Shown here: in pieces, positions 5,750 through 49,077 of the stretch
How the letters are laid out: every line of letters begins with the position of its first letter
How positions within the stretch are numbered: the first letter of the stretch is position 1
Program-made: the position numbers and the translations under genes
The notes under the pieces: generated by a model
What the model saw: only the letters and a program-made list of their open reading frames with translations
Database searches by the model: none
Told to the model about the DNA's origin: nothing
From: Coriobacteriia bacterium
Lineage (GTDB): Bacteria > Actinomycetota > Coriobacteriia > Anaerosomatales > SLCP01
Assembly: GCA_007121015.1 (NCBI GenBank)
Contig: SKMN01000059.1
Location: forward strand, 1 to 59,251
Direction: 5' to 3'
DNA: 59,251 nt

Positions 5750-5806
5750 TGGCGAACGTCGCGCCGACCCTATCTGCCCGGCGCGCCTCTACGAAAGGAA
5801 GTGAAC

Positions 5807-7432
5807 ATGTTTTGCAACCAGTGTGAACAGACCGCAAGGGGTACCGGTTGCGTCACGGTAGGCGTGTGTGGCAAGAAGGAGGACGTCGCCGTTCTCCAGG
5901 ACCTGCTCGTGAACGCATGCAAGGGGCTCTCGATGGTCGCCATCGACGCAGCCGCGCGCGGCGTCGATACGACCGAGGCCGGTCGCTTCGTGGCCGACTC
6001 GCTCTTCACCACGCTGACCAACGTCGACTTCGACCCGGGATCGATCGCCGAGAAGGTCGACGAGGCTGTCCGTCTGCGCGATGCGCTTGCCGCCGGATCG
6101 GACGCTACCGTCGAGGGTGCACTCGTCGACTTCGCACCGGCGAGCGGCGTGGACGAGAAGATAGCCCAGGGCGTCGAGTTCGGTAGCCCGTGGGACACGA
6201 CCCGTGGCGAGGACGTCCAGGCCCTCCAGCAGACCACTCTCTACGGCCTCAAAGGCGTGGCAGCGTACGCGCACCACGCGCGTATCCTCGCCCAGGAGGA
6301 CCCGGATGTGTACGCGTTCATGTTCAAGGTGCTCACGGCGCTCGACGATGCGACGATAGGGCTTGAGGACTGGATCGCGCTTGCGCTCGAGTGCGGAGCG
6401 GTGAACCTGCGCACGATGGAGTTGCTCGATGCGGGCAACACCGGCACCTACGGACATCCGGTGCCCACCGAGGTCCCGCTCGGCCACCGGCCGAACAAGG
6501 CCATCCTCATCTCCGGCCACGACCTGCGCGACTTGCAACTGCTTCTCGAGCAGACCGAGGGCAAGGGTATCGATGTCTACACCCACGGCGAGATGCTGCC
6601 CGCGCATGCGTACCCGGAGCTCAAGGCGCACCCGCACTTCTACGGCCATTACGGCACCGCGTGGCAGAACCAGCACAAGGAATTCGCCGGGTTCCCCGGC
6701 GCGATCCTCATGACCACCAACTGCCTCATGCCGCCACGCGACGAGTACAAGGAGCGCCTCTTCACGAGCGGTCCGGCGCAGTTCCCGGACATCCTGCACC
6801 TCGAAGGCGACTTCTCGCCCGCGATAGAGAAGGCGCTTGCGATGCCCGGATTCACGGACGAGGTCGACAGCGGCAGCGTCATGGTGGGCTTTGGACGCAA
6901 CACCGTGCTTGGCGTGGCCCCGCAGGTCATCGACGCGGTCAAAGGCGGCGCGATCAAGCACTTCTTCCTGGTGGGCGGATGCGATGGCGCCAAGCCGGGT
7001 CGCAACTACTACACCGAGTTCGTCGAGCAGGCCCCGGCCGACACCGTCGTGCTCACGCTCGCGTGCGGCAAGTTCCGCTTCTTCGACAAGCAACTCGGCG
7101 ACATCGGCGGCATCCCGCGCCTGCTCGACGTGGGCCAGTGCAACGACGCCTACTCGGCGATCAAGATCGCCGTCGCGCTCGCGGACGCCTTCGAGGTCGG
7201 GGTGAACGACCTGCCGCTCTCGATGATCCTCTCGTGGTACGAGCAGAAGGCCGTCGCGATCTTGCTGACACTGCTGCACCTCGGCATCACCGACATCCGT
7301 CTTGGGCCGACCCTGCCCGCCTTCGTGACACCCAACGTGCTGCAGGTGCTCGTCGACACGTTCGACATCAAGCCCATCGCCGAGTCGGCCGCAGAGGATC
7401 TCGAGGCGATCCTCGGGACGGAGGCCGCGTAG
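5807..7432 (+). CDS. hcp: Hybrid cluster protein (hydroxylamine reductase / NO reductase / S-nitrosylase)
   Basis: The 541-residue product has the N-terminal cysteines of Hcp: Cys3, Cys6, Cys15 and Cys21 (C-x2-C-x8-C-x5-C). That spacing indicates a [4Fe-4S] proximal cluster, the anaerobe (class I-like) form, not the [2Fe-2S] form of enterobacteria. Further conserved stretches such as ISGHDLRDL, TTNCLMPPRDEY, GGCDGAKPGRNYY and VGQCNDAYSA carry the ligands of the hybrid cluster. Hcp reduces hydroxylamine and NO to N2O and can drive protein S-nitrosylation. ATG 5807 fits the family N-terminus MFCNQCEQ and follows AAAGGAAG. The small haem protein starts two bases after its stop. Confidence 0.97.
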   Translation: MFCNQCEQTARGTGCVTVGVCGKKEDVAVLQDLLVNACKGLSMVAIDAAARGVDTTEAGRFVADSLFTTLTNVDFDPGSIAEKVDEAVRLRDALAAGSDATVEGALVDFAPASGVDEKIAQGVEFGSPWDTTRGEDVQALQQTTLYGLKGVAAYAHHARILAQEDPDVYAFMFKVLTALDDATIGLEDWIALALECGAVNLRTMELLDAGNTGTYGHPVPTEVPLGHRPNKAILISGHDLRDLQLLLEQTEGKGIDVYTHGEMLPAHAYPELKAHPHFYGHYGTAWQNQHKEFAGFPGAILMTTNCLMPPRDEYKERLFTSGPAQFPDILHLEGDFSPAIEKALAMPGFTDEVDSGSVMVGFGRNTVLGVAPQVIDAVKGGAIKHFFLVGGCDGAKPGRNYYTEFVEQAPADTVVLTLACGKFRFFDKQLGDIGGIPRLLDVGQCNDAYSAIKIAVALADAFEVGVNDLPLSMILSWYEQKAVAILLTLLHLGITDIRLGPTLPAFVTPNVLQVLVDTFDIKPIAESAAEDLEAILGTEAA

Positions 7433-11584: not shown

Positions 11585-12793
11585 GTGAACGCGAGTCGTT
11601 TTACCAAGAATCTCTTGCGGAGCGCGCGGGTCACGTGGCGCGCTCATCCCACCCGGTACGATATAGAGGCCTTGCAAGCCAATATCGAGCGGGTCGGCCT
11701 CGTCATCAAGGTCCGCTGGGCGATCGTGGCACTGCTCGCGACGTTCTCGGCCATCGGGCTCGCGGTGTACTCGACGGAACTGCCGTGGGAAGAGCTTGCG
11801 GCGAACATGCGCGTGCCGGCGATCGCCGTTGCGTTCGTCATCGCGTACAACACCTACTACCACCTCACCTACCGGCGTCTCGGCAACATCGCGTTCCTCA
11901 ACCACGCACAGCTGCTCTTCGACGTGCTCGTCGTGGGAGTCCTCATCTACTACTCCGGTGGCGTGAACTCATGGTTCTATGCGCTTTACCTGCTCTTCAT
12001 CCTCGAAGCCGCCTTCATATTGCCGTTGAGGCGGGACACCTGGATCGTCGCCGGGTTCTGTGCGCTGACGTATGGCGCGGTGCTGTTCGGCGAGTTGTTC
12101 GGCGTGCTTCCCCACGTGACCGTGCCGTTCAGCGAGGAGGACCTGCACCAGAACACCGCCTACGTCACGGTGCGGTTCATGTGGCAGGTAGCGGTCTTCG
12201 GGGGGGCGGCGATGGTCGTCACGCTGATGACGGGCTCCCTCGCCGTGCGGGAGGCGCGAATCGCCGAGGCGGCGATCATCGACGAGAAGACGGGCCTCTA
12301 CGAGCGCAGCTACTTCCTGCGCGCACTCAACAGCGAGATCCTCCGGGCCGAGCGGGACGACCGGCCCCTCTACGTGATGCTTATCGACATGGATGACTTC
12401 GCGCGCTTCAACGACCTGTTCGGTATCGAGTTGGGAGACGAACTCCTGGCGAACGTCGCGCGCGCCTTCGAGGACGCCCTCGAGTCGTGTGGCTCGGCGA
12501 TGACGTTCGAGACGAACATCATCGCACGCTGGGGTGGAGAGGAGTTCGCGGTCTTGTTGAGCGAGGGATGCTCCGGCGGGCCACCCGAAGGCGAGGACGC
12601 CGCTAAGGTGGCCGGGGCCTTGCGTTCGGCCGCCGAAGGGACCCTCGTCAAGGGTGCCGGGGTGACGGTGAGCCTTGGCATCGCGGCCTTCCCTGCGCAC
12701 GGGCCCACGGCCGACACGCTCTTGACCGCTGCCGACGAGGCGCTCTATCGCGCCGCGGAGGCGGGAGGCAACCGCACCGAGATGGCCTCGTAG
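11585..12793 (+). CDS. Membrane-bound diguanylate cyclase (GGEEF)
   Basis: The 402-residue protein has an N-terminal cytoplasmic segment (1-40), about six transmembrane helices (about 42-215) and a C-terminal GGDEF domain (about 235-400). The active-site loop is GGEEF (317-321) and the metal-binding stretch reads DMDDF, so c-di-GMP synthesis is likely. The RxxD product-inhibition site normally found just before the active loop is not present (FETN instead), so feedback inhibition should be weak. The membrane part has no recognised ligand domain. GTG 11585 follows GGAGG. It runs directly into the DUF1461 gene two bases later. Confidence 0.9.
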   Translation: MNASRFTKNLLRSARVTWRAHPTRYDIEALQANIERVGLVIKVRWAIVALLATFSAIGLAVYSTELPWEELAANMRVPAIAVAFVIAYNTYYHLTYRRLGNIAFLNHAQLLFDVLVVGVLIYYSGGVNSWFYALYLLFILEAAFILPLRRDTWIVAGFCALTYGAVLFGELFGVLPHVTVPFSEEDLHQNTAYVTVRFMWQVAVFGGAAMVVTLMTGSLAVREARIAEAAIIDEKTGLYERSYFLRALNSEILRAERDDRPLYVMLIDMDDFARFNDLFGIELGDELLANVARAFEDALESCGSAMTFETNIIARWGGEEFAVLLSEGCSGGPPEGEDAAKVAGALRSAAEGTLVKGAGVTVSLGIAAFPAHGPTADTLLTAADEALYRAAEAGGNRTEMAS

Positions 12794-22538: not shown

Positions 22539-25115
22539 ATGGGCCGGTTCTTCCTCGGCAAGCACCTCTACAATCAGATAGTGCTGCCGCTCGTCGTCGC
22601 CGCCCTGGCCGTAGGGGTCATGGCCACGGTCGTCGCCACCTATTTCTTGTCCGACCTGACGGACCGCTGGGTCGACCAGGTCGCCGAGAACGCCTCGGCC
22701 AGCGTGTTGACCCGCGTCCAAGACCGGGTCGACGCGATGCACTCGGTCGCCCGTCTCATCGCAGACGGACAAGCCCTGGTCGAGGCGACCGAAGCAGCGA
22801 ACGTCGACGACCTCGAACTCCTCCTCGACCGCTCGCGCGCCACACACGGTTACGCGGACATCGCGGTACTCGACCGAGGTGGACGGCTCGTCGCCGGGAG
22901 CGGCTTCTTCGCCCGTGAAGGCGGGGACGCTGCCCTCGCGGAGGATACGTGGTCCGAGGAGGCACTCGTCCGGCCGGTGTCGTTGCTCACACTCGTCGAC
23001 GGGCGTCCAGTGCTCGTCGCGCTCGAACCCGTTGCGACCTCCAGCGGACACGTCCTGCGCGTCGCTCACCTCATCGACGACGCGCTCCTCGGCGAGCTTG
23101 CCACAGGCGCGGGAAGCGCGTTCGTGCTCTACGTCGTCGGAGAAGGCCGCGTGGCGCTTTCGGTCGCCGAGGACCCGGAGGACGGCTCTGCGCACGTCGC
23201 GCTCGCCGGTGAGCTCGACGAGGATCCCGCGACGGTCGCCGACGTGGTGGCGGCCGCCTCAGCGAGTGTCGAGCGCACCGGAGTGGGGACACTCGACGTC
23301 GAAGGCCGGCGGTACACGGTCCGGGCGGACGCGCTGTCCCTTACCGACGCGGAGTGGGCACGCGGCGAAGACCTCTTCCTCGTGTCCCTGCTCAGCCAGG
23401 AAGCGAGCATGGATGCGCGCGCTGCGACGATGAACCTTATCGGGATGTGGTCGTTCATCGCAGTGCTCGCGCTCGTAGGACTCGGCGGGTGGGTCGCTCG
23501 CCGCGTGTCTGATCCGTTGGTGGAGCTGACCGAGGGCGCGCGGAAGGTGGCCGACGGAGACTTCTCGGCCAAGACGGTCATAAAGGGAGACAACGAGATA
23601 GCCGAGCTCGCCACGAGCTTCAACCAGATGACCGACTCACTCAAGGACCGGAGCGAGAGCCTCACCAAGAAGGTCCTCGAACTGGCGACACTCTACGAGA
23701 TGAGCAGGTCTCTCGGCTCCACGCTCGACATGGACGAACTTCTCGACTCGGTGCTCGACTCGGCCCTACGCATCTTCAGCGCCGACCTCGGCTACGTCAC
23801 GATGCGCGACCCGGAAACTGGGGAACTGGCGATCCGGGCACACCGGGGGGTGAGCGAGACGCGCATCGATGATGCAGCTGTACGGAGTTCGATGTCGGAG
23901 TGGGTCATCCGCGAGTCTCGCCCGCTGGTCTTCAACCCCGCAGAGGTGTCGAGCCACGGGCAGGTCGAGGTCGTCACCGGGGCGCTCGCGGCGCTCTGCG
24001 TGCCCCTGGTTTCCGGAGAGGGGACTGTCGGCGCGATCACCGTAGGAAGCCAGGACCCCGACCATCGTTTCGACAGCGAAGACGTCCGCCTGCTGTCGAC
24101 GATCGCCAACCACGTGACGATCGCCATCGGGAACATCGATCTGTTCTCGAGCCTTCAGGAGGCGTATCTGACCACGGTGCGCTCGCTTGCTGCGGCAGTC
24201 GATGCGAAAGACCCGTACACGCGCGGGCACTCCGATGGTGTGGCGGTGTATGCAGCCCTCATCGCCGAGGAGATGGGACTCTCTCACGACCAGAAGGTCG
24301 CACTCGAGATGGCGGCCTACCTGCACGACATCGGCAAGATCGGCGTCAAAGAAGAGATATTGCTCAAGCCCGGGACGCTCACCGACGCGGAGATGGGCCA
24401 GATGCGGCACCACCCGCTCATCGGTGCGAGCATCTTGAAGCCCGTCGCCTTCCCGTGGCCCATCACGCCGGTCGTACGCCATCACCACGAGTTCTGGGAC
24501 GGCAACGGGTATCCCGCTGGGCTGAAGGGTGAGGAGGTCCCGCTCCTCGGACGCATCCTGGCCGTCGCCGACGCGTACGAGGCGATGATCTCCGATAGGC
24601 CGTATCGCAAGGGGCGCACGATGATCGAAGGTGTCGCCGAGCTCAGGCGATGTGCGGGCACGCAGTTCGACCCACAGGTGGTCGAAGTCTTCATAGAGGC
24701 ACTCGAGCGGCGCGAGCGGCTCGGCTGCGAAGATGCCGACGATGTCGTGGAGAAGGTCGGTCTCGCTGAGGCGCGGGCGATCTTCGTCGCGCTGAGTGAG
24801 GGGATGCTGTCGAGTTTCAGAAGGCTCGGGGGTCCCCGGCTTGCGGGTAACGTCGAGTGCGAACTCAACGTGCGCTTCGCCGAGGAACGGCTACCGATAG
24901 TCGTAGAGGGCGGCCGCGTGGTCGTCACGGCCGACGAAAGCACGGTCCACGCTGTGGAGATCGACGGACTGACATCGGCACTGCGCATGATCGACACCAC
25001 GATGGGGAGGATGTCGGGGAATACGCTCGTGGACCACTTCTACAGCGACGCGATGGAGGCGTTGCCTGAGCGCATGAGGTGCCTGGCCACGCGTCTCGGA
25101 TTCTACGTGGCGTGA
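22539..25115 (+). CDS. Transmembrane HD-GYP phosphodiesterase receptor (sensor-HAMP-GAF-HD-GYP)
   Basis: The 858-residue receptor has a first transmembrane helix (about 13-38), an extracellular sensor domain (about 40-290, Cache-like), a second helix (about 300-320), HAMP (about 320-375), a GAF domain (about 395-540) and an HD-GYP domain (about 545-730). The catalytic residues are intact: HDIGK (His596, Asp597), VRHHHE and the GYP motif (657-659). It should hydrolyse c-di-GMP. About 125 further residues form a C-terminal domain with no recognised motif. It directly follows the PstS-like lipoprotein gene, which is its likely ligand sensor. Confidence 0.93.
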   Translation: MGRFFLGKHLYNQIVLPLVVAALAVGVMATVVATYFLSDLTDRWVDQVAENASASVLTRVQDRVDAMHSVARLIADGQALVEATEAANVDDLELLLDRSRATHGYADIAVLDRGGRLVAGSGFFAREGGDAALAEDTWSEEALVRPVSLLTLVDGRPVLVALEPVATSSGHVLRVAHLIDDALLGELATGAGSAFVLYVVGEGRVALSVAEDPEDGSAHVALAGELDEDPATVADVVAAASASVERTGVGTLDVEGRRYTVRADALSLTDAEWARGEDLFLVSLLSQEASMDARAATMNLIGMWSFIAVLALVGLGGWVARRVSDPLVELTEGARKVADGDFSAKTVIKGDNEIAELATSFNQMTDSLKDRSESLTKKVLELATLYEMSRSLGSTLDMDELLDSVLDSALRIFSADLGYVTMRDPETGELAIRAHRGVSETRIDDAAVRSSMSEWVIRESRPLVFNPAEVSSHGQVEVVTGALAALCVPLVSGEGTVGAITVGSQDPDHRFDSEDVRLLSTIANHVTIAIGNIDLFSSLQEAYLTTVRSLAAAVDAKDPYTRGHSDGVAVYAALIAEEMGLSHDQKVALEMAAYLHDIGKIGVKEEILLKPGTLTDAEMGQMRHHPLIGASILKPVAFPWPITPVVRHHHEFWDGNGYPAGLKGEEVPLLGRILAVADAYEAMISDRPYRKGRTMIEGVAELRRCAGTQFDPQVVEVFIEALERRERLGCEDADDVVEKVGLAEARAIFVALSEGMLSSFRRLGGPRLAGNVECELNVRFAEERLPIVVEGGRVVVTADESTVHAVEIDGLTSALRMIDTTMGRMSGNTLVDHFYSDAMEALPERMRCLATRLGFYVA

Positions 25116-27503: not shown

Positions 27504-27541
27504 AGCGAGGAGTACGAGCCGTGTACCAGCAGGGAGAGCGT

Positions 27542-28222
27542 ATGGGCAGTGAGAAGATCCTCATCGTCGAGGATGACAGGACCATCGCGCGTTTCGTCGA
27601 ACTCGAACTCATGCACGCGGGCTACCAGGTCCATAAGGTCGACGATGGGAACATCGCGCTCGACGTCATCGAGGAGGACCCGCCGGACCTCGTCATCTTG
27701 GACCTCATGCTTCCTGGGATGGATGGTATCGAGGTCGCCGAGACCCTGCGTTCCCTGGGCTATCACGTCCCGATACTCATGCTTACCGCGCGCGCGGAGA
27801 CCGAGGACGTGGTGGCAGGCTTCGGATCGGGTGCCGACGACTACCTTCGGAAGCCGTTCGAGATCCCCGAGTTGCTGTCGCGCGTACGTGCGCTGCTCAA
27901 GCGCACCGAGCAAGACCGGGGCGGTCCGATCCACAAGGCGTCGGGACTCGAGGTCGACACAGCCTCCCGCCGCGCTACGCTCGCGGGCGCACCCATCGAG
28001 TTGACGGCACGGGAGTTCGACCTGCTCACGTATCTGGTGAGCAACGCCGGACGGGTCGTGACGCGAGACGAGATCCTCGAAGCGGTGTGGGGCATGCAGA
28101 AGAGTACGGACAGCAACGTCATCGAGGTTTTCATCTGCCATCTTCGCAACAAGATCGGTGACGAGAACAACACGATCATCCAGACCATCAGGGGTGTCGG
28201 GTATTTCTTCGCAAGGGGATAG
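27542..28222 (+). CDS. OmpR/PhoB-family response regulator
   Basis: The 226-residue protein has a receiver domain (about 4-118) with the acidic pair Asp11-Asp12, the phosphorylated Asp54 (VILDLMLPG) and the conserved lysine in YLRKPFE. A winged-helix DNA-binding domain follows (about 130-226), ending with TIRGVGYFF. ATG 27542 follows AGGGAGAG; the longer in-frame start at 27521 lacks a site. The kinase gene starts directly after its stop. Target genes are unknown. Confidence 0.95.
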   Translation: MGSEKILIVEDDRTIARFVELELMHAGYQVHKVDDGNIALDVIEEDPPDLVILDLMLPGMDGIEVAETLRSLGYHVPILMLTARAETEDVVAGFGSGADDYLRKPFEIPELLSRVRALLKRTEQDRGGPIHKASGLEVDTASRRATLAGAPIELTAREFDLLTYLVSNAGRVVTRDEILEAVWGMQKSTDSNVIEVFICHLRNKIGDENNTIIQTIRGVGYFFARG

Positions 28223-29716
28223 ATGAGGCGCTCATCACTGCGCACGTCGCTCTTCCTTATCTCGCTCCTGTTCGCTGTGCTCGTAGTGGGCGGGGTCTCC
28301 TTGACGACGTACGTCGTCATCTCCGAGGTCGTCGCGGCCGCCGCGCACGATGCGGCAGTCCGGGCGTCTATGCGTGTCGCCGACATCGCCAAGGTGCGCG
28401 TCACGGACGCGGTCCTCGAAGCGGCTGCGAGCGGCTTGACCGGGCAAGAGCGGGACCAGGAGGCACGGCGACTGTTCTTCCGCGACGTCCCGGCCATCTT
28501 CCGGGGCGGCGGGCAGAGCGGGGTGGAAGTCGCCTTCTACGATGAGACGCTCCAGCCTCTGTGGTTCAGCGACGAGCGGGCGCTGACCGAGGCTGAACAG
28601 GAACGCAGGCGGGCGATCGTCGCGGCGCAGCCCGTCGAGTCCGTCTATGTGGATCGGCCGCCGCTCTCCGGGATGTTCGGAGAACAGGCCCTCGACACCT
28701 TCACGATCCACGTCCCTATCGATCTTCCCGACGGGGCGCGCGGGGTCATCGATGTGACGTACTTCCCCGACCTCGAAGAGTCGATCATGAACCAGGTCCG
28801 GCTGCCGATGCTCGTACTCGCGCTGTCTTCTGCCCTTGTCATGGTGATCATGATCCAGGCCGGTACGGGATGGATGCTGAAGCGGATCGAGCACCTTCGC
28901 GCGGCTGCTGAATCCGTCGAGACCGGTCGCCTCGACGTCCAGCTCCCGGTGGAGGGCAACCACGAGATCGCCGAACTCGCGCGTTCGCTCAACATGCTCA
29001 TGAGCCGTCTGCGCCATCGTGCCGCGATGCAGACTCGGTTCGTGGCGGACGCGTCTCACGAGCTGGCCACGCCCGTCGCCGGCATTCGCGGATACACCGG
29101 CATCCTGAGAGCCTGGGGCGCCGAGGACTCCGAGGTCCGTGACGAAGCGATCGCCGCCATCGACAGGGAGTCTCGGCGCATGGCCCGCCTCTGTGGTGAC
29201 CTTATCGCGTTGGTCCGCACCGATCAGGCAGGGGAGGCTGAAGCGGTACCGTTCGACGTACATGAGCTGGCGCGGGAAGTGATGGCGAGCGCGCTCACCC
29301 GCTACAAGGACAGGGGTCACCTGCACGAAGGTCCGCCCGGGGGCGCGCTCGAGGCCGTCGGCGACCCGTCACGTCTGGAAGACGTGCTCTCGGTGCTGCT
29401 CGATAACGCGTTCAAGTACACGCCCCCCGGAGGCAAGATCTTCATCGACACCCGGGCCACCGACGACGTGGTGACCATCGAGATAGGCGACACGGGGATA
29501 GGCATTCCCGAGGAGGACCTCCCCAGCATCTTCGAGCGATTCTACCGCTCCGACGAGTCGCGTTCCAAGTCGACGGGAGGCTTTGGTCTCGGACTGCCGA
29601 TAGCGAAGTCTGCGGTGGAGGCCATGGGGGGCGATCTCGCCGTCCGCAGCGCACGCGGAGAAGGATCGGTCTTCACCGTTCTGATTCCCCGTGACCTATC
29701 CAGAGAACAGAGGTAA
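28223..29716 (+). CDS. Membrane sensor histidine kinase
   Basis: The 497-residue partner of the preceding regulator has two transmembrane helices (about 8-38 and 190-215) flanking an extracellular domain of about 150 residues, then HAMP, a HisKA domain with His279 in SHELATP, and a HATPase domain with N box LDNAFKYTPPGG, G1 DTGIGIP and G2 GGFGLGLP. The usual SHEL(R/K)TP has alanine in place of the basic residue, a mild oddity. The extracellular domain has no recognised ligand motif. Confidence 0.94.
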   Translation: MRRSSLRTSLFLISLLFAVLVVGGVSLTTYVVISEVVAAAAHDAAVRASMRVADIAKVRVTDAVLEAAASGLTGQERDQEARRLFFRDVPAIFRGGGQSGVEVAFYDETLQPLWFSDERALTEAEQERRRAIVAAQPVESVYVDRPPLSGMFGEQALDTFTIHVPIDLPDGARGVIDVTYFPDLEESIMNQVRLPMLVLALSSALVMVIMIQAGTGWMLKRIEHLRAAAESVETGRLDVQLPVEGNHEIAELARSLNMLMSRLRHRAAMQTRFVADASHELATPVAGIRGYTGILRAWGAEDSEVRDEAIAAIDRESRRMARLCGDLIALVRTDQAGEAEAVPFDVHELAREVMASALTRYKDRGHLHEGPPGGALEAVGDPSRLEDVLSVLLDNAFKYTPPGGKIFIDTRATDDVVTIEIGDTGIGIPEEDLPSIFERFYRSDESRSKSTGGFGLGLPIAKSAVEAMGGDLAVRSARGEGSVFTVLIPRDLSREQR

Positions 29717-30356: not shown

Positions 30357-32165
30357 ATGATGGCTCTAGCGTACGCACAGGGACACATCGGCGAGTCAGC
30401 GCTGATCCAGGGCGCCTCCTCCGACTGTCACGCGTGTTGGGGATGCGTTCGAGCGTGCGCGGCACGTGCGATCCGGGTGGTCGGTGGGTACGCCGAGGTC
30501 ATCGAGGACCGGTGCGTGAAGTGTGGCGCGTGTGTGGCGGCGTGTGGCACCGGAGGTATGGTCGTCCGTGACGACACCTCGCGCGTCATGGACCTTCTCG
30601 CGGGACCACGCTCCGTCGTTGCGCTGCTCGCTACCGAGTCGGTCGCAGCGATGCGCCCGCTCAGTCCCTCCGAGGTCGATGACGCCTGTCGGGAACTCGG
30701 GTTCATGACGGTCGAGAGCACGCTCCTCGGCGAGGAGATCGTGGCGCGCGAGTACGAGGACGTGCGAGCGAGCCGCGCGGATCAGCCGGTGGTGCGCTCG
30801 ACGTGCCCTGTGGTCACTGAATGGATACGACGGTTCCGTCCCGGACTCGTCGGCATGCTCGCGCCGGTGGTGCCACCGTATATCGCGCAGGCCCGCCTCG
30901 TGCGCTCGATGTACGAGGAGCAGGTCGCTATCGTCTACGTGTCTCCGTGCTACGCGCGCAAGGACGAGATCCTCGAACCGGAGTTCGAGGGTATCGTGGA
31001 TGTCGCGATCGGGTTCGACGAGTTGCGGCGGCTGTTCACATCGGGGCCGCTCGCTGCCGCACGGACATCGAAGGGGTCCTCGGCCGACCCGGTACGTCTG
31101 AGAGTAGAGAAGGACATCTCGCTCACCGATGGGTTCCCGCGCAGCTTTCTCGACGGGAAGGTCGGGGGAGTGGGTGGACTCACGACGGTGAGAGGTCTCG
31201 ATCGGCTCGATCGGCTCGCCGAGGCGATCGAGGCCGGGGAGGCAGCTCCGGGCATCGTCGATGCCCTGTACTGCGAGAGCTGCATCGACGGGCCTGCCAT
31301 GGGTGTGGACCTTTCCGGCTATGCGCGGCGTGTCGCTTCCGCGACAGCCCGGCGCCCCTCGGCAAGAGTGACGGTCGCCTCCCGTGATCTGCTCCGCCAC
31401 CTTCCTGACGCTGAGACATCGCGTCGGTTCGGGGCCCGCGTGGTCGAGCACTCGGCATTCACCGAGGCCCGGATCGACGAGTCGCTCGCGGAAGGCGGCT
31501 TTGCCGGCCGCGAACAAGCGCTTGATTGCGGTGCGTGCGGGTACGCGACGTGTGTGGAGCATGCGGTCGCCGTGCTCTCGGGTGCGTCGGAGTGGGAGGC
31601 GTGTCTGCCGATACACGTCAAGCGTCTCGAATCGAAGGTCGCTGACCTCCAGGACCACGCGACCATCGATCCGCTGACCGGTCTGTGGAATCGTCGGGTG
31701 TTCTACGAGCGCCTTGCCAACGAGTTCGCCCGGTTCCGCCGGTATGGGCTGCCGCTCGCGCTTCTGATGGTCGACCTCGACGGGTTCAAGACGATCAACG
31801 ACACGTATGGTCACCGGACCGGGGACGCGGTGTTATGCCAGACAGCCTCTGCGATGAAGGCGGTCCTCCGTGAGACCGACATAGCGGCTCGATACGGCGG
31901 GGATGAATTCGCGCTCATCTTGCCCGGAGTCGATAAGACCGCCGGCTACGCGGTAGCGGAGAAGCTGCGAGCAGCCATCTCGCAGCTTGAGGTCCCCGTG
32001 GCCTCCTCCGATGCCGAAGAGTCGATAACGGGCACTATCTCCGTGGGACTCGCATCGGCTCAGCCTACGATGGGCTCGCACGACGAACTGCTCGAGCAGG
32101 CGGACAGGGCACTTTACCGGGCCAAAGAGCAGGGCCGAGACCGGGTCCGTCTCGCACCCGACTAG
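30357..32165 (+). CDS. HsfB-like H-cluster (iron hydrogenase C-terminal) protein fused to GGDEF
   Basis: This 602-residue fusion begins with two complete [4Fe-4S] motifs (Cys24/27/30/34 and Cys53/56/59/63). A domain like the large-subunit C-terminal part of [FeFe] hydrogenases follows, with three cysteine loops: STCPVVTEW (Cys150), SPCYARKDE (Cys198) and YCESCIDGPAMG (Cys306, Cys309). Next is a DCGACGYATC cluster motif (391-400), as in sensory HsfB-type proteins, then a short coiled linker. The last part is a GGDEF domain with GGDEF (514-518) and an intact inhibitory RxxD site, RETD (505-508). Loops 1 and 3 differ from catalytic hydrogenases, so sensing is likelier than turnover. It lies between queT and a radical SAM gene, probably in one transcript. 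Confidence 0.88.
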   Translation: MMALAYAQGHIGESALIQGASSDCHACWGCVRACAARAIRVVGGYAEVIEDRCVKCGACVAACGTGGMVVRDDTSRVMDLLAGPRSVVALLATESVAAMRPLSPSEVDDACRELGFMTVESTLLGEEIVAREYEDVRASRADQPVVRSTCPVVTEWIRRFRPGLVGMLAPVVPPYIAQARLVRSMYEEQVAIVYVSPCYARKDEILEPEFEGIVDVAIGFDELRRLFTSGPLAAARTSKGSSADPVRLRVEKDISLTDGFPRSFLDGKVGGVGGLTTVRGLDRLDRLAEAIEAGEAAPGIVDALYCESCIDGPAMGVDLSGYARRVASATARRPSARVTVASRDLLRHLPDAETSRRFGARVVEHSAFTEARIDESLAEGGFAGREQALDCGACGYATCVEHAVAVLSGASEWEACLPIHVKRLESKVADLQDHATIDPLTGLWNRRVFYERLANEFARFRRYGLPLALLMVDLDGFKTINDTYGHRTGDAVLCQTASAMKAVLRETDIAARYGGDEFALILPGVDKTAGYAVAEKLRAAISQLEVPVASSDAEESITGTISVGLASAQPTMGSHDELLEQADRALYRAKEQGRDRVRLAPD

Positions 32166-32187: not shown

Positions 32188-33201
32188 ATGCGTACGGCAG
32201 ATCTGTGGCATAGCGAGGGCGGACGTGTTCGCTGCGAACTCTGCCCTCACCGATGCCTTATCGCACCGGGGCGTGCGGGAGTCTGCGGCGTCCGGCGCAA
32301 CGACTCGGGGACGCTCATCGCCACCACGTATGCGTGCGTGTCCTCCGTAGCTATCGACCCGATCGAGAAGAAGCCGGTGTTCCACTACCGTCCCGGCACG
32401 AATGCGCTGTCGCTCGGCAGCGTCGGATGCACGATGTCGTGCGGGCACTGTCAGAACTGGCGTATCAGCCGAGCGGGGCCCGGCGACGGCAACGTCCGGC
32501 TGCAGGCCCTGGCACCCGAGGAGGTCGTGCGTCTCGCTCTGGACGGCGGGTGCGCGGGGGTCGCGTTCACCTACAACGAGCCCGTCATCTGGGCGGAGTA
32601 TGTGCGTGACACGGCGGCGCTGTGCCGAGAGTCGGGGCTCTACACGGTGATGGTCACCAACGGCTACATCACCGAGGACGGACTCGACTACCTCGGCGAA
32701 GTGATCGACGTGTGGCGCGTCGACGTGAAGGGCGCTTCCAAGGAGACGTATCGCACGCTGTGCCACGTGCGCTCCCCGGGACCCGTGTTCGATGCGGCGG
32801 TCCGGGCCAAGAAGCGGTGGGGCATGCATGTCGAGGTGATCACGAACGTCGTCCCCACCGTCAACGACTCCGATGAGGAACTCACTGCGATCGCGCGCTT
32901 CATCGCCGACTCGCTGGGAACGATGACCCCGTGGCACGTGACCAGGTTCATCCCCTACCTGGACTACGCACACCTCGAACCGACGCCGTTCGTGACGCTC
33001 GAGCGCGCTGCCCGGATTGGAGCGGAGGCGGGACTCGCGTTCGTGTACCTCGGTAACGTCGCGGAGCCGGGAGGGGAGGACACCGTGTGCCCCTCGTGTG
33101 GTGCGCGAGCGATAGTCAGGGACGGGTACACCGTCATCAAGCAGGCAACGAGTGAGGGCGCGTGCCTGGCCTGCGGGGAAGACCTCGGCATCGTCGAGTA
33201 G
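32188..33201 (+). CDS. amrS: AmmeMemoRadiSam-system radical SAM enzyme (AmrS)
   Basis: The 337-residue protein resembles pyruvate formate-lyase activating enzymes but is of the AmrS type. An N-terminal cysteine set (CELCPHRC, then GVCGVRRN) is followed by the radical SAM motif GCTMSCGHCQNW (Cys81, Cys85, Cys88), FTYNEPVIW, and MVTNGYITEDGLDY. Two more cysteine pairs (CPSCGAR, CLACGE) near the C-terminus suggest a metal site. In many genomes it accompanies Memo and AMMECR1 genes in a system of unknown chemistry; neither is in this window. It follows the H-cluster/GGDEF gene by 22 bases and a DsbA-like gene comes eight bases later. Confidence 0.9.
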   Translation: MRTADLWHSEGGRVRCELCPHRCLIAPGRAGVCGVRRNDSGTLIATTYACVSSVAIDPIEKKPVFHYRPGTNALSLGSVGCTMSCGHCQNWRISRAGPGDGNVRLQALAPEEVVRLALDGGCAGVAFTYNEPVIWAEYVRDTAALCRESGLYTVMVTNGYITEDGLDYLGEVIDVWRVDVKGASKETYRTLCHVRSPGPVFDAAVRAKKRWGMHVEVITNVVPTVNDSDEELTAIARFIADSLGTMTPWHVTRFIPYLDYAHLEPTPFVTLERAARIGAEAGLAFVYLGNVAEPGGEDTVCPSCGARAIVRDGYTVIKQATSEGACLACGEDLGIVE

Positions 33202-44276: not shown

Positions 44277-45287
44277 TCAGCAGATGCGCGGCAACTGCTC
44301 TCCCACGAGCATGTCCATGACGCGCGCAGCCCCGAACGCGGTGCGCACGTACACGGTCCCTGCAGGAGCCTCGGTCACCTCGCCGATGATCGCCGCGTCC
44401 TCGCCATACGGCGCACGGCGCATCGCCGACAGCGCCGCCTCGGCGCTGTCGGCAGGCACGACGGCTACCATCTTGCCTTCGTTGGCGACCTGGAACACGT
44501 CGTAGCCGAGCATCTCGCACGCGCCGAGCACCTGCTCGCGTACGGGCACCCGCGTCTCGTCCACGGTGATCGAAGTGCCCGAGGTGTCTGCGATCTCGTT
44601 GAGCGCCGATGCAAGCCCGCCGCGGGTCGGGTCGCGGAAGCACCGCGCGTCCGGGGCGGAGTCGAGGACGGCGGCGACGAGGTGGTTGAGCGGGGCGGCG
44701 TCGGTGCGCAGGTCGGTCGAGAACTCGAGGCCCTCACGAGTGGAGACGACGGTGATGCCGTGGTCGCCGAGGCTCCCCGAGAGCAGCACGACGTCGCCGG
44801 GGCGGCACGCGGCCGCCGAGAGGGAGAGCCCCTCGGGAACCACCCCCACGCCGGTCGTGTTGATATAGACGCCGTCACCGTGGCCGCGCTCGACGACCTT
44901 CGTGTCACCGGTGACGATGTGCACGCCGGCTTCCTCGGCCGCCTCGCGCATCGAATGGAGGATGCGTCGCAGGTCGTCCACGGGCAGCCCCTCCTCGAGG
45001 ACGAACCCCACCGAGAGGTAGAGCGGCCGGGCGCCTGAGGTCGCGACATCGTTCACCGTGCCGCAGACGGCGAGGCGGCCGATGTCACCGCCGGGGAAGA
45101 AGAGGGGCGAGACGACGTAGGTGTCGGTGGAGAGCGCGATCCGGCCGCCGGGCAGCTCGAAGGTCGCGGCGTCGTCGGTCACGCTGAGCTGAGAATCGCC
45201 GAACCCCGCGACGAAGACCTCGTCGATGAGGCGGCGCATGAGCGAGCCGCCGCTGCCGTGGGCCAGGAGTATGGTGTCGGAATCCAT
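44277..45287 (-). CDS. hypE: Hydrogenase maturation protein HypE
   Basis: The 336-residue ATP-dependent enzyme dehydrates the thiocarboxamide on its own C-terminal cysteine to thiocyanate, giving the CN ligands of [NiFe] hydrogenases. It starts with LLAHGSGGSLMRRLIDEVF, has DTKVVERG and the AIR-synthase-like fold, and ends with the required PRIC tail, so it is intact. It is last in the hypF-C-D-E group. Confidence 0.97.
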   Translation of the reverse strand: MDSDTILLAHGSGGSLMRRLIDEVFVAGFGDSQLSVTDDAATFELPGGRIALSTDTYVVSPLFFPGGDIGRLAVCGTVNDVATSGARPLYLSVGFVLEEGLPVDDLRRILHSMREAAEEAGVHIVTGDTKVVERGHGDGVYINTTGVGVVPEGLSLSAAACRPGDVVLLSGSLGDHGITVVSTREGLEFSTDLRTDAAPLNHLVAAVLDSAPDARCFRDPTRGGLASALNEIADTSGTSITVDETRVPVREQVLGACEMLGYDVFQVANEGKMVAVVPADSAEAALSAMRRAPYGEDAAIIGEVTEAPAGTVYVRTAFGAARVMDMLVGEQLPRIC

Positions 45288-45324
45288 GTGGTTTCCTGCC
45301 TTTCGCGCGCAGCCGGGCGGGCCG

Positions 45325-46416
45325 TCAGGTCTTCCCGTGGTCGGTGTATCGATAGTAGGCGGCGCACGAACCTTCCGAGGAGACCATGCACGGTCCCACC
45401 GGGTGTTCCGGCGTGCATGCGTTCGCGAAGAGGCGGCACTCGAAGGGCAGGGTCACTCCACGCAGCACCTCGCCGCACTGGCACCCGGGGGTCTCGTGCG
45501 GCGGCTCGGGCTCGACCGGTACCCGCACGAGGGCATCGAAACGCTCGTAGGCGGGGCGGATCGCAAGGCCGGTCCCGGGGATCACCCCGATGCCGCGCCA
45601 CTCGGCGTCGGACTGCTCGAAGACCTTGTCGGTGAGCGCTCGTGCGGTAGGATTGCCCTCGGGAGTCACGCCGCGCGTGTAGGCTATCTCGACGTCGGCG
45701 CGTTCCTCGGCCAGCTGCGACACGAGCATCCACACGCCCTGCAACACATCGACCGGCTCGAAACCGGTGATAACGCTCGCCACACCGTACTCATCGGCGA
45801 GGAATCGGTAGGGCTCCAGGCCGATGATCGTCGAAACGTGTCCGGGAAGGATGAAGCCGTCGACCGCCACGTCGGGGTCGTCGACGAGCGCGCGGAGTGC
45901 CCCAGGCACCGTCTTGTGGGCCGAGAAGACGCTGAAGTTGCCGAGGTCCGCCGCCGTGGCCCGTTCGATGGCGGCCGCGATGAGCGGGACCGTGGTTTCG
46001 AACCCGACGCCGATGAAGACGACGTGTCGGTCCGGCTCGCGCTTCGCGAGCGCGAGCGCGTCGAGTGGGGAGTAGACGATGCGCACGTCGCGCCCGTCAG
46101 CCTTCTCGCGGGAGAGCGAGGAGCGGGAGCCGGGCACCTTCATCATGTCGCCAAAGGTCGCGACGATCACGCCAGGCTGTCGAGCGAACTCGATGGCGGT
46201 ATCGATGTCGGCGTTCGACGTCACGCAGACCGGGCACCCTGGGCCCGACAGAAGCCTCACATCGGGCGGCATGATGCCGCGCAGACCGTTCTTGGCGATC
46301 GCCACGGTATGGGTCCCGCACACCTCCATGATCGAGACGGGCCGCGTGACAGTAGCATCGATCGCGTCGACGAGCCGGGCGGCGAGGGCAGGATCGCGGA
46401 AGCCGGAGAGGTCCAC
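45325..46416 (-). CDS. hypD: Hydrogenase maturation protein HypD
   Basis: The 363-residue protein has the HypD signatures: EVCGTHTVAIAKNGLR, SGPGCPVCVTS, and a C-terminal cysteine-rich region (PGCQCGEVLRG, ECRLFANACTPEHPVGPC) that holds the [4Fe-4S] cluster. With HypC it assembles the Fe(CN)2CO unit. Start is a GTG seven bases after hypC. Confidence 0.97.
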   Translation of the reverse strand: MDLSGFRDPALAARLVDAIDATVTRPVSIMEVCGTHTVAIAKNGLRGIMPPDVRLLSGPGCPVCVTSNADIDTAIEFARQPGVIVATFGDMMKVPGSRSSLSREKADGRDVRIVYSPLDALALAKREPDRHVVFIGVGFETTVPLIAAAIERATAADLGNFSVFSAHKTVPGALRALVDDPDVAVDGFILPGHVSTIIGLEPYRFLADEYGVASVITGFEPVDVLQGVWMLVSQLAEERADVEIAYTRGVTPEGNPTARALTDKVFEQSDAEWRGIGVIPGTGLAIRPAYERFDALVRVPVEPEPPHETPGCQCGEVLRGVTLPFECRLFANACTPEHPVGPCMVSSEGSCAAYYRYTDHGKT

Positions 46417-46423
46417 GGCGGGC

Positions 46424-46666
46424 CTACTCCGCTTCGGCGGTATCGGACGGGTAGATGTCGAGTTGCTTGAGCAGCTCGACGGTCTCGTTGGCGAATTCCT
46501 CGTCGACGACCTGGATCGCGAAGCCTGCGTGGACGAGCACGTGGTCGCCGATCTCAGCGCCGGGGATGAGATCGAGGCTCACGTGGCGGGTGACACCCAT
46601 GATCTCGACCTCGGCCATGTTGTTCGCCTCGAGCGTCTTCACTCGTGCGGGGATCGCAAGACACAT
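46424..46666 (-). CDS. hypC: Hydrogenase assembly chaperone HypC
   Basis: The 80-residue protein begins MCLAIPARV, the HypC/HupF signature whose Cys2 carries the iron unit, and contains HVLVHAGFAIQVVDEEFA. ATG 46666 follows AGGAGG; a longer upstream start was rejected because the family always begins at MCL. It lies between hypF and hypD. Confidence 0.97.
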   Translation of the reverse strand: MCLAIPARVKTLEANNMAEVEIMGVTRHVSLDLIPGAEIGDHVLVHAGFAIQVVDEEFANETVELLKQLDIYPSDTAEAE

Positions 46667-46704
46667 CGGGAAGTACCTCCTCGCGTGCGGGGTGTTCCGG
46701 GTGA

Positions 46705-49077
46705 CTATACCGCGTGGCGGCGCGCCCACGCTACGACCGCTTGGCCGAACGAAACCGAACCATCGTTCACCGGCAGCCTCTCGTGGGTGATCGGGGCGAG
46801 TCCCGCGCGCTCAAGCCCGCGCATCGCGCCCTCGAGCACGAAGCGGTTGAGGAACACGCCTCCCGACAGGGCCACATGGCGGATACCGGTCCGCTGCGAC
46901 GTTGAAGTGGCGAGCGAGACGATGCATGCCACGACGGCCCGGTGGAACCGTGCGGAGATCGTACTGGAGGAGATCCCGGCGGCTACGTCGTCGAGCACGG
47001 CGGCGATCACCGGAAGCGGGTCGGCGAGGAGTGCATCGCCGTGAACGAGGTCGAACGCGTAGGCGCCATCGGCGTCCGGGTCGAGCGCGGCTTCCAGCTC
47101 GATGGCCGCTTCGCCTTCGTAGGCCGCGTCGTCACGCACTCCAGTCAGTGCTGCGACCGTGTCGAAAAGACGTCCCATCGACGAGGTGAGAGGGGAGTTC
47201 ACGGAGCGCTCGACCATGCGGCGCACGACCGCCTGCTCTCCCTCGCGTAGCCGGGACAGAAGCGGTTCTGCACCGGGGTGGTCGCAGAGTGCGGGATCGA
47301 GACCGAGGAGGGTACCGAGCGCCATGCGCGCGGGACGGCGGATCGCCGCTGCGCCGCCAGGCATTGGTACCTCACGCAGGTGGCCGGCTCGCGTGAATTC
47401 CTCCCACGTCGCGACGAGTAGTTCCCCGCCCCAGATGCGGCCGTCGTTCCCGTACCCGGTCCCATCGAGCGCCACGCCGATGACCGGTTCGGCGATCCCG
47501 TGCTCTGCGGCGACGCCGGCGATATGGGCGTGGTGATGCTGGACACCTACCCTCGGCAGGTCGAGGGTCAGGGCGTACTTGGTGGTGAGGTACTCGGGAT
47601 GGAGGTCGTGGGCGACGAGTGCGGGTTCGATCCGGAAGAGACGTTCGTATAGGCCGAGGGTGTCGTGGAAGTGCTCGAGTGCGGCCGCGTTCTCCATGTC
47701 GCCGATGTGCTGGGAGACGAACGCCCGGTTACCGGCGAGCAGGGTGAACGTGTTCTTCTGCGCGGGCCCGACCGCGAGCACCGCCACGTCGCTCTCGAAG
47801 GGCACGGACAGCGGGTGGGGGGCGTAGCCGCGTGCTCGGCGGAGCGGCTGTGCCCGGTCTGCGACGAGGCGGACGACCGAGTCGTCGTAGCGCGAGCGGA
47901 TCTCGCGGTCGTGGAGGAGGAAGACGTCGGCAACGTCGGCGAGGCGGGAGAGTGCCTCGCGATCGTCGGTGGCGATCGGTTCGTCGGTGAGGTTGCCCGA
48001 AGTCATGACCAGGGGACCGTCCACCTCGGCGAGCAGCAGCTGGTGGAGGGGGGTATAGGGCAGCATGATTCCGATGTCGGGCAGGTCTCCAGCGACCGAG
48101 GGAGCGAGCGCAGGTGCCACGCTGCCGGTGGCCGTGCGTCTGCGCAAGAGCACGATCGGACGCACCGCGTTCGCGAGGAGCTCCTCCTCGGCATCGCTCA
48201 CTTCGGCGAGCGTTCGCGCAGCTGCCGCATCGCGCACCATCACTGCGAGCGGCTTGCCCCACCGGTGCTTGCGTTCGCGGAGCCGGGTGACCGCCGCTTC
48301 GTCGGTCGCGTCGCATGCAAGGTGGAAACCACCGAGCCCCTTGAGTGCTACGATCCCGCCGCGTGCGAGGGAGGTCGCGACTGCATCGATGATCGCGTCC
48401 GAGCGCTCGCGTTCGTTCGCGGCATCGCGGTGGGGTCGCGCGGCGGCCGTGTCCACGCCATGGGGCCAGCGCCACTCAGCGGGAGCATCGCTATCTTCGA
48501 GATAGAGTCGCGGGCCGCACACGAAGCAGGCGTCGGGCTGGGCGTGGAAGCGCCGGTCAGCCGGGTCCGAGTACTCGGCGTCACACTCCGGACACATCTC
48601 GAAGACCCGCATCGTCGTGGCGGGCCGATCGTAGGGGATGTCATCGATTATCGTGAACCTCGGCCCGCAGTTCGTGCAGTTGATGAAGGGGTATCGGAAA
48701 CGCCGGTCGTCCGAGTCGACGAGCTCGCGGGCGCATGCCTCGCAGGTGGCGATGTCGGGGGAGACAAGGGTCGCCGCACCCGCGAACGACTCCGATTCGC
48801 GGATCTCGAATCCCGTCAGCGGTTCGGGCTCGACCTCCTCGGCGACGAGCTCCTCGATGACCGCCATGGGCGGCGCTTCGTTGCGTACGGCTGTGAGGAA
48901 CCGGTCGACCGCGTCACGAGGACCCTGGACGAGGCAGTAGACGCCGTCCGAGGAGTTAAGCACCCAGCCGACCAAGCCGAGCCGCGTTGCGAGCGCATAG
49001 ACGTGCGGGCGGAAGCCGACGCCCTGCACTACGCCGCGTACGTGCAGGTGGACGGTGCTCGTGAGTGAAGGCACCAC
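46705..49077 (-). CDS. hypF: Carbamoyltransferase HypF
   Basis: The 790-residue enzyme makes carbamoyl-AMP and passes the carbamoyl group to HypE. Domains in order: acylphosphatase (about 5-95, VRGVVQGVGFRPHVY), a double zinc finger (CEACAREL, NCTNCGP, CPECDAEY, CFVCGP; about 110-190), a YrdC-like domain (about 210-395, LKGLGGFHLACDA) and a Kae1-like domain (about 410-790, HHAHIAGVAAEHG and VALDGTGYGNDG). Start is GTG. It heads hypF-C-D-E. hypA, hypB and hydrogenase structural genes are not in the window. Confidence 0.97.
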   Translation of the reverse strand: MVPSLTSTVHLHVRGVVQGVGFRPHVYALATRLGLVGWVLNSSDGVYCLVQGPRDAVDRFLTAVRNEAPPMAVIEELVAEEVEPEPLTGFEIRESESFAGAATLVSPDIATCEACARELVDSDDRRFRYPFINCTNCGPRFTIIDDIPYDRPATTMRVFEMCPECDAEYSDPADRRFHAQPDACFVCGPRLYLEDSDAPAEWRWPHGVDTAAARPHRDAANERERSDAIIDAVATSLARGGIVALKGLGGFHLACDATDEAAVTRLRERKHRWGKPLAVMVRDAAAARTLAEVSDAEEELLANAVRPIVLLRRRTATGSVAPALAPSVAGDLPDIGIMLPYTPLHQLLLAEVDGPLVMTSGNLTDEPIATDDREALSRLADVADVFLLHDREIRSRYDDSVVRLVADRAQPLRRARGYAPHPLSVPFESDVAVLAVGPAQKNTFTLLAGNRAFVSQHIGDMENAAALEHFHDTLGLYERLFRIEPALVAHDLHPEYLTTKYALTLDLPRVGVQHHHAHIAGVAAEHGIAEPVIGVALDGTGYGNDGRIWGGELLVATWEEFTRAGHLREVPMPGGAAAIRRPARMALGTLLGLDPALCDHPGAEPLLSRLREGEQAVVRRMVERSVNSPLTSSMGRLFDTVAALTGVRDDAAYEGEAAIELEAALDPDADGAYAFDLVHGDALLADPLPVIAAVLDDVAAGISSSTISARFHRAVVACIVSLATSTSQRTGIRHVALSGGVFLNRFVLEGAMRGLERAGLAPITHERLPVNDGSVSFGQAVVAWARRHAV

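Follow-up and report, generated by a model that had tools for sequence, protein, structure and literature searches.

A hydrogenase-fold domain fused to a GGDEF domain in Anaerosomatales: a candidate diiron-less iron-sulfur sensor linked to c-di-GMP

Introduction

The HydDB classification distinguishes three classes of sensory [FeFe]-hydrogenases, the kinase-linked class C1, the chemotaxis-linked class C2 and the phosphatase-linked class C3, and contains no cyclase-linked [FeFe] class (PMC5037454). Sensory HydS proteins of groups C and D carry a C-terminal cluster motif with Cx2Cx4Cx16C spacing (PMC8163306). For TmHydS and TamHydS, a role in H2 signalling is putative only, and the C-terminal cluster of TamHydS was found not to be reduced by H2 (PMC13104023). 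Two residues of the active-site pocket have been linked to the cyanide ligands of the H-cluster: Ser232 of CpI forms a hydrogen bond with the cyanide close to the [4Fe] subsite (PMC12138974), and a salt bridge to the distal cyanide has been suggested for a lysine of the active-site niche (PMC6100070). A precedent for an H domain free of diiron is Nar1 (PMC12621388), and one for the redox control of a diguanylate cyclase by non-heme iron is Bhr-DGC of V. cholerae (PMC9388753).

Here, we describe an H domain-GGDEF fusion encoded in a window of 59,251 nucleotides (contig SKMN01000059.1 of assembly GCA_007121015.1) from a Coriobacteriia bacterium of the order Anaerosomatales, the genome of which comprises 1.94 Mb in 85 contigs and is 98% complete. 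We consider it probable that this protein is a diiron-less, all-[4Fe-4S] redox or oxygen sensor that controls a c-di-GMP module and that descends from sensory [FeFe]-hydrogenases resembling groups C and D.

Architecture of the fusion protein

Translation and Pfam analysis of the 602-residue frame bore out the initial annotation, made from the sequence alone, which had placed two [4Fe-4S] motifs, an H domain, a four-cysteine motif and a GGDEF domain in one frame; the cysteines assigned to positions 150, 198, 306/309 and 391-417 were all correct (Table 1). The hydrogenase likeness of the central domain, on which that annotation depended, is seen both in the match to PF02906 (E 2.5e-25) and in the fold (Z about 34). 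The same architecture was found in 30 orthologues, in the alignment of which all 16 cysteines are invariant, including those of the N-terminal [4Fe-4S] motifs (30/30).

Table 1. Features of the fusion gene and of neighbouring genes in the window
Feature	Coordinates	Strand	Details
Whole fusion gene	30357..32165	+	2x[4Fe-4S] - H domain - [4Fe-4S] (PF04060) - helix - GGDEF, 602 aa
Two N-terminal [4Fe-4S] motifs	30420..30554	+	Cys 24, 27, 30, 34 and 53, 56, 59, 63; Fer4 models, residues 22-66
[FeFe]-hydrogenase H domain (PF02906)	30615..31295	+	Residues 87-313; Fe_hyd_lg_C, E 2.5e-25 (Pfam)
Glu94, equivalent of CpI Ser232 (cyanide contact)	30636..30638	+	E in 57/57 GGDEF-fused rows; S/A in 42/42 others
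Loop 1, RSTCPV	30795..30812	+	Residues 147-152; cluster ligand Cys150; position of proton-transfer Cys299 is Thr149
Loop 2, SPCYARKDE	30942..30968	+	Residues 196-204; Cys198; CpI Met353 replaced by Ser196, Lys358 by Arg201
Loop 3, DALYCESCIDGP	31260..31295	+	Residues 302-313; Cys306 and Cys309 (Cx2C)
C-terminal Cx2Cx4Cx16C [4Fe-4S] motif	31527..31604	+	Cys 391, 394, 399, 416; PF04060, E 6.2e-7, residues 389-418
Linking helix, last cluster to GGDEF	31605..31664	+	Residues 417-436; model secondary structure; putative signalling/dimer helix
GGDEF domain	31659..32144	+	Residues 435-596; Pfam E 1.3e-48; catalytic residues intact
I-site RETD	31869..31880	+	Residues 505-508; alignment
HAMP-GAF-HD protein with HD-GYP-like motif	22539..25115	+	PF13487, E 5e-36; NF053512 c-di-GMP phosphodiesterase family below cut-off
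OmpR-type response regulator and HAMP histidine kinase, upstream	27521..29716	+	Profile matches, neighbourhood conservation
AmmeMemoRadiSam-type radical SAM enzyme, next gene	32188..33201	+	22 bases downstream; TIGR04337, 303.7 bits
HypE, HypD, HypC, HypF, [NiFe] hydrogenase maturation	44277-49077	-	Cluster

Comparison of the window gene with an orthologue of the same genus gave omega values of 0.22 for the sensor and 0.09 for the GGDEF domain, indicative of purifying selection, which was found to act on both halves in all three pairs tested. The AlphaFold model of the window protein is confident (mean pLDDT 87.8). It matched the [FeFe]-hydrogenases CpI, CbA5H and DdHydAB with Z scores of 29-34 (CbA5H 34.1, CpI about 31) and GGDEF structures with a score of 29.1 for 3ign; its structure matches also include HydA(deltaEFG), which represents the maturase-free state (3lx4). 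Given the common architecture of 30 orthologues, the purifying selection and a model that matches both folds, the fusion is more than a chance juxtaposition.

Residues of the cluster site and the diiron pocket

Residue columns were read in 57 aligned GGDEF-fused rows, which correspond to 56 genomes with one gene counted twice, and in 42 comparison homologues that comprise kinase-, PAS- and sigma54-linked proteins as well as groups A and B, the group D protein TamHydS not being among them. The four cysteines that ligate the [4Fe-4S] cluster of the H domain in loops 1 to 3 of group C and D proteins (C150, C198, C306 and C309) are invariant in all 57 rows, and the window protein also has the two N-terminal [4Fe-4S] motifs and the C-terminal motif of these groups, as judged by its sequence and the 30-orthologue alignment. 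The cyanide pocket differs: in place of Ser/Ala at position 232 and Lys at 358, Glu94 and Arg201 are found. Lys358 of CpI, which we take to be the niche lysine of the distal-cyanide salt bridge, is a lysine in each of the 42 other homologues and was lost from 55 of the 57 GGDEF-fused rows, two proteins (L072 and L132) having retained it; across these rows, position 201 is occupied by R, A, Q, V, M, W or K. Arg147 is present in 57/57 GGDEF-fused rows and in 0/42 other homologues. From these columns, the pattern is that of a clade that would have retained the cubane site and lost the diiron site.

The statement of the initial annotation that loops 1 and 3 differ from those of catalytic hydrogenases agrees with the alignment, in which Thr149 replaces Cys299. 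The Cx2C spacing of loop 3, one residue shorter than in group A, was considered as a mark of diiron loss, but it also occurs in kinase- and sigma54-linked homologues, among them the kinase-linked ones of a HydF-bearing genome (G243), and was therefore dismissed.

The invariance of Glu94 and Arg147 within the GGDEF-fused clade makes the pocket look like a new function and not like decay. One explanation is that the emptied diiron pocket binds another ligand or metal, such as a small molecule or a single iron, via Glu94, Arg147 and their neighbours, so that this ligand would be the signal and the clusters would be mainly structural. We regard this as unlikely. Both residues occur in every GGDEF-fused row and in none of the 42 homologues with other outputs, as it would predict, but the variation at position 201 implies that the pocket is fixed only in part, and the candidate ligand is purely hypothetical.

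Absence of HydF and HydG

The initial annotation had advised a check for hydEFG genes. This was carried out for HydF and HydG, with Thermotoga maritima as a positive control that scored over the cut-off in each search, and neither was present in the window genome: HydG was not found, and for HydF there was only a GTPase-family background with a best score of 80.9 bits as compared to a cut-off of 325.6. Among 61 Anaerosomatales genomes, no HydG exceeded the cut-off (four sub-threshold hits scored near 160-190 bits). With all candidates scored, HydF was detected in 0/61 of these genomes and in 0/26 actinobacterial genomes outside the order in which a GGDEF fusion was read. HydF was present in 4/4 Clostridia genomes with PAS-linked proteins and in both actinobacterial genomes of the kinase type, as a full protein in G243 and as a fragment of 112 positions in G332. 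Over the genomes with a protein read, HydF thus occurs in 0/56 with GGDEF-fused as opposed to 6/6 with kinase- or PAS-linked proteins, counts that do not amount to 62 independent observations because the fusion has one evolutionary origin, so that the pattern may reflect one event. Nor is the absence of HydF alone proof of diiron loss, since no HydF was detectable in two nearly complete Coriobacteriia genomes, G274 and G338; G274 encodes a group-B-like [FeFe]-hydrogenase (L133:1866-3539) with canonical residues, and G338 has a similar match.

These data bear on the proposal of the initial annotation that the protein is a true H2 or CO sensor, in which an assembled H-cluster would set the cyclase activity through its state. 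The full set of H-domain cysteines, the homology to group C and D HydS and the presence of Ser196 and Leu304, the residues by which TamHydS replaces M353 and M497, are compatible with it, as is the growth of cultured Anaerosomatales on H2 (PMC9686372). However, HydF and HydG were not found, the cyanide pocket is altered by Glu94 and the loss of Lys358, and PF02906 counts in the 61 genomes leave the order without any other [FeFe]-hydrogenase with which a maturation system could be shared. In addition, published Anaerosomatales isolates were reported to possess [NiFe] hydrogenases only (PMC9686372), and we therefore consider a direct H2 or CO sensor very improbable. The Hyp genes in the window agree with the growth of these isolates on H2 by [NiFe] enzymes. 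As the host organisms use H2 through such enzymes, an H2-linked signal may reach the fusion protein indirectly, via ferredoxin. What stands of the initial proposal is a sensory, hydrogenase-family H domain coupled to an intact diguanylate cyclase, with redox state as the input; the H-cluster, and with it H2 and CO, does not, in view of the absent HydF and HydG and the replaced cyanide contacts.

Distribution and origin

Exactly one PF02906 gene was found in 55 of the 61 Anaerosomatales (OPB41) genomes sampled, and every homologue read was a GGDEF fusion; full-length matches within the order share 43-69% identity over the sensor half. The fusion is common and not universal in Anaerosomatales, since the remaining six genomes, several of them nearly complete, have no such gene. 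Across the phylum, the sensor profile matched in 41 of 396 genomes, and the same fusion was present in proteins read from 26 genomes that lie outside Anaerosomatales. In a sample of Bacillota, 194 of 398 genomes contained a homologue. None of the best 30 of these has Glu94, their tails being PAS, kinase, sigma54-activator or other domains, and a pattern search confined to these 30 found no GGDEF-like motif.

The GGDEF-fused proteins were found to be monophyletic with a support of 100/99, which rose to 100/100 once Bacillota were added, and their clade is placed among group C-like proteins. Because they form one clade, the fusion, Glu94 and Arg147 look like the result of one event at its base. 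Among the Bacillota homologues, two proteins (L136:1411-3750 and L141:454-2739) carry a sigma-54 activator AAA+ domain and a Fis-type HTH fused to the H domain and cluster module; this output is not among the HydDB classes C1 to C3, and the diiron pocket residues are retained.

The GGDEF domain as cyclase or c-di-GMP receptor

The window GGDEF domain contains the catalytic residues D473, K478, D482, H486, D516 and E517, and hence the features expected of a diguanylate cyclase: the GG(D/E)EF motif at residues 514-518, the metal-binding Asp with the substrate residues, and an RxxD I-site. The complete GGDEF domain with a RETD inhibitory site described in the initial annotation is thus intact, and the window cyclase looks catalytic. 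A different situation was met among the 45 Anaerosomatales orthologues, where the GGDEF motif is intact in 24 and the catalytic pattern lost in 21. Degenerate motifs include VADQF, RGDQF and AGGEF; by sequence, the losses fall into two or more types, among them an xGDQF-like one and AGGEF (orthologues L077 to L121). Given that cyclase residues were lost in 21/45 and the I-site R and D were kept in 45/45, the degenerate orthologues, about half of the order, are probably c-di-GMP receptors that read c-di-GMP rather than make it. We read this as a c-di-GMP binding site conserved throughout, with cyclase activity that would be retained in part of Anaerosomatales.

One may ask whether the entire family functions mainly as a c-di-GMP receptor, or as an electron-transfer or Fe-S protein gated by c-di-GMP, in which case cyclase activity in the window copy would be a retained ancestral trait. 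The counts just given fit such a role, and in pairs with a degenerate GGDEF the sensor part is, by omega, more constrained than the GGDEF part. In contrast, the GGDEF motif is intact in the window copy and in each of the 26 homologues read from Actinomycetota outside Anaerosomatales, and the GGDEF domain is the most constrained part between the window protein and its nearest orthologue (omega 0.09). This makes such a role improbable.

A broader scenario, which we put forward tentatively as a possible but less likely one than the redox sensor, is that a deep-branching lineage of Actinomycetota made a new class of sensor out of an H2-sensing [FeFe]-hydrogenase. The diiron site would have been emptied, the invariant Glu94/Arg147 pocket would sense something else, and the wiring to c-di-GMP would run both ways, with a cyclase in some members and a receptor in others.

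Neighbouring genes

In 34 loci, a related radical SAM gene comes next after the fusion gene and has the same orientation. Upstream of the fusion gene, QueT is encoded alongside the histidine kinase and the OmpR-type regulator. The HAMP-GAF-HD protein of the same gene run is, by its motif and profile matches, a candidate c-di-GMP phosphodiesterase; an upstream HD-GYP gene with the strict motif was identified in 8 of 48 loci, the flanks being 6 kb at most. A pattern search revealed another GGDEF motif in the window, in a frame at 11585-12793. The window also encodes a hybrid cluster protein (hydroxylamine reductase; 5801-7432, NF003658, 784.7 bits), hinting at the handling of NO or nitrosative stress.

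Proposed mechanism and implications

For the redox or oxygen sensor that we favour, the invariant cysteines suggest that the protein most likely holds four [4Fe-4S] clusters: two at the N terminus, one at Cys150/198/306/309, formerly the site of the H-cluster, and one held by the Cx2Cx4Cx16C motif. The trigger would be an altered redox state of these clusters, or a change in their integrity, as caused by reducing as opposed to oxidising conditions or by trace O2 or NO. Oxidation, reduction or loss of a cluster would change the C-terminal cluster module, which would act through helix 417-436 on the pairing of two GGDEF domains. This pairing, in either direction of regulation, would switch the synthesis of c-di-GMP, and the product would inhibit the enzyme via the RETD site.

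If this reading is true, a bacterial hydrogenase-fold protein devoid of the organometallic half would serve as a pure Fe-S signalling device, in parallel to the eukaryotic Nar1. The combination of Glu at the position of CpI S232 and loss of Lys358 would mark, at the sequence level, those H domains that metagenome annotations and counts should not treat as H2 sensors. Furthermore, a candidate redox-to-c-di-GMP switch would be available for Anaerosomatales, a group of subsurface anaerobes in which cultivated strains use iron and sulfur compounds for respiration and produce pili-like appendages.

Comparison with known systems

The initial annotation left open whether an H domain-GGDEF fusion had been described. 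No description was found in the open-access literature searched, in agreement with the HydDB classes (PMC5037454), and domain databases may list the architecture uncommented. The titles and abstracts searched yielded no clear case of an Fe-S-controlled diguanylate cyclase, and in the portions of the literature covered the name HsfB occurs only in Desulfotomaculum genome papers.

The closest described proteins are the HydS of group C (TmHydS, M2f) and group D (TamHydS, M2e), with which the fusion shares the two N-terminal [4Fe-4S] motifs, the four H-domain cysteines, the Cx2Cx4Cx16C motif and the missing Cys299; by comparison with the published substitutions, Ser at M353 and Leu at M497 are shared with TamHydS (PMC8163306). 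It differs from both groups in its output, which is PAS in group C, none in group D and GGDEF here, in having Glu at S232 and no Lys358, and in a genome that lacks the H-cluster maturases HydF and HydG. Like the HydDB classes C1, C2 and C3, it couples a sensory H domain to a signalling output, but this output is GGDEF instead of a kinase, chemotaxis or phosphatase module. Unlike genomes with the fusion, all six tested genomes of the kinase- and PAS-linked types have HydF, and the homologues of these types that were read retain the residues of the diiron pocket.

Further parallels exist outside the sensory [FeFe]-hydrogenases. The [NiFe] group 2c, linked to diguanylate cyclases and putatively sensing H2 (PMC5037454), likewise connects a hydrogenase-family sensor to c-di-GMP on paper, but it belongs to an unrelated enzyme family with the [NiFe] and not the [FeFe] fold. 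Nar1/CIAO3 (PMC12621388) is an H-domain protein with the cluster site and no diiron half in an organism that lacks the maturases, a likeness limited to the missing diiron half, whereas Nar1 is a eukaryotic Fe-S trafficking protein that has no second-messenger domain. Finally, in the hemerythrin-GGDEF protein Bhr-DGC of V. cholerae (PMC9388753) a non-heme iron redox sensor also controls a diguanylate cyclase, although this sensor is a hemerythrin diiron domain and not an H domain with Fe-S clusters.
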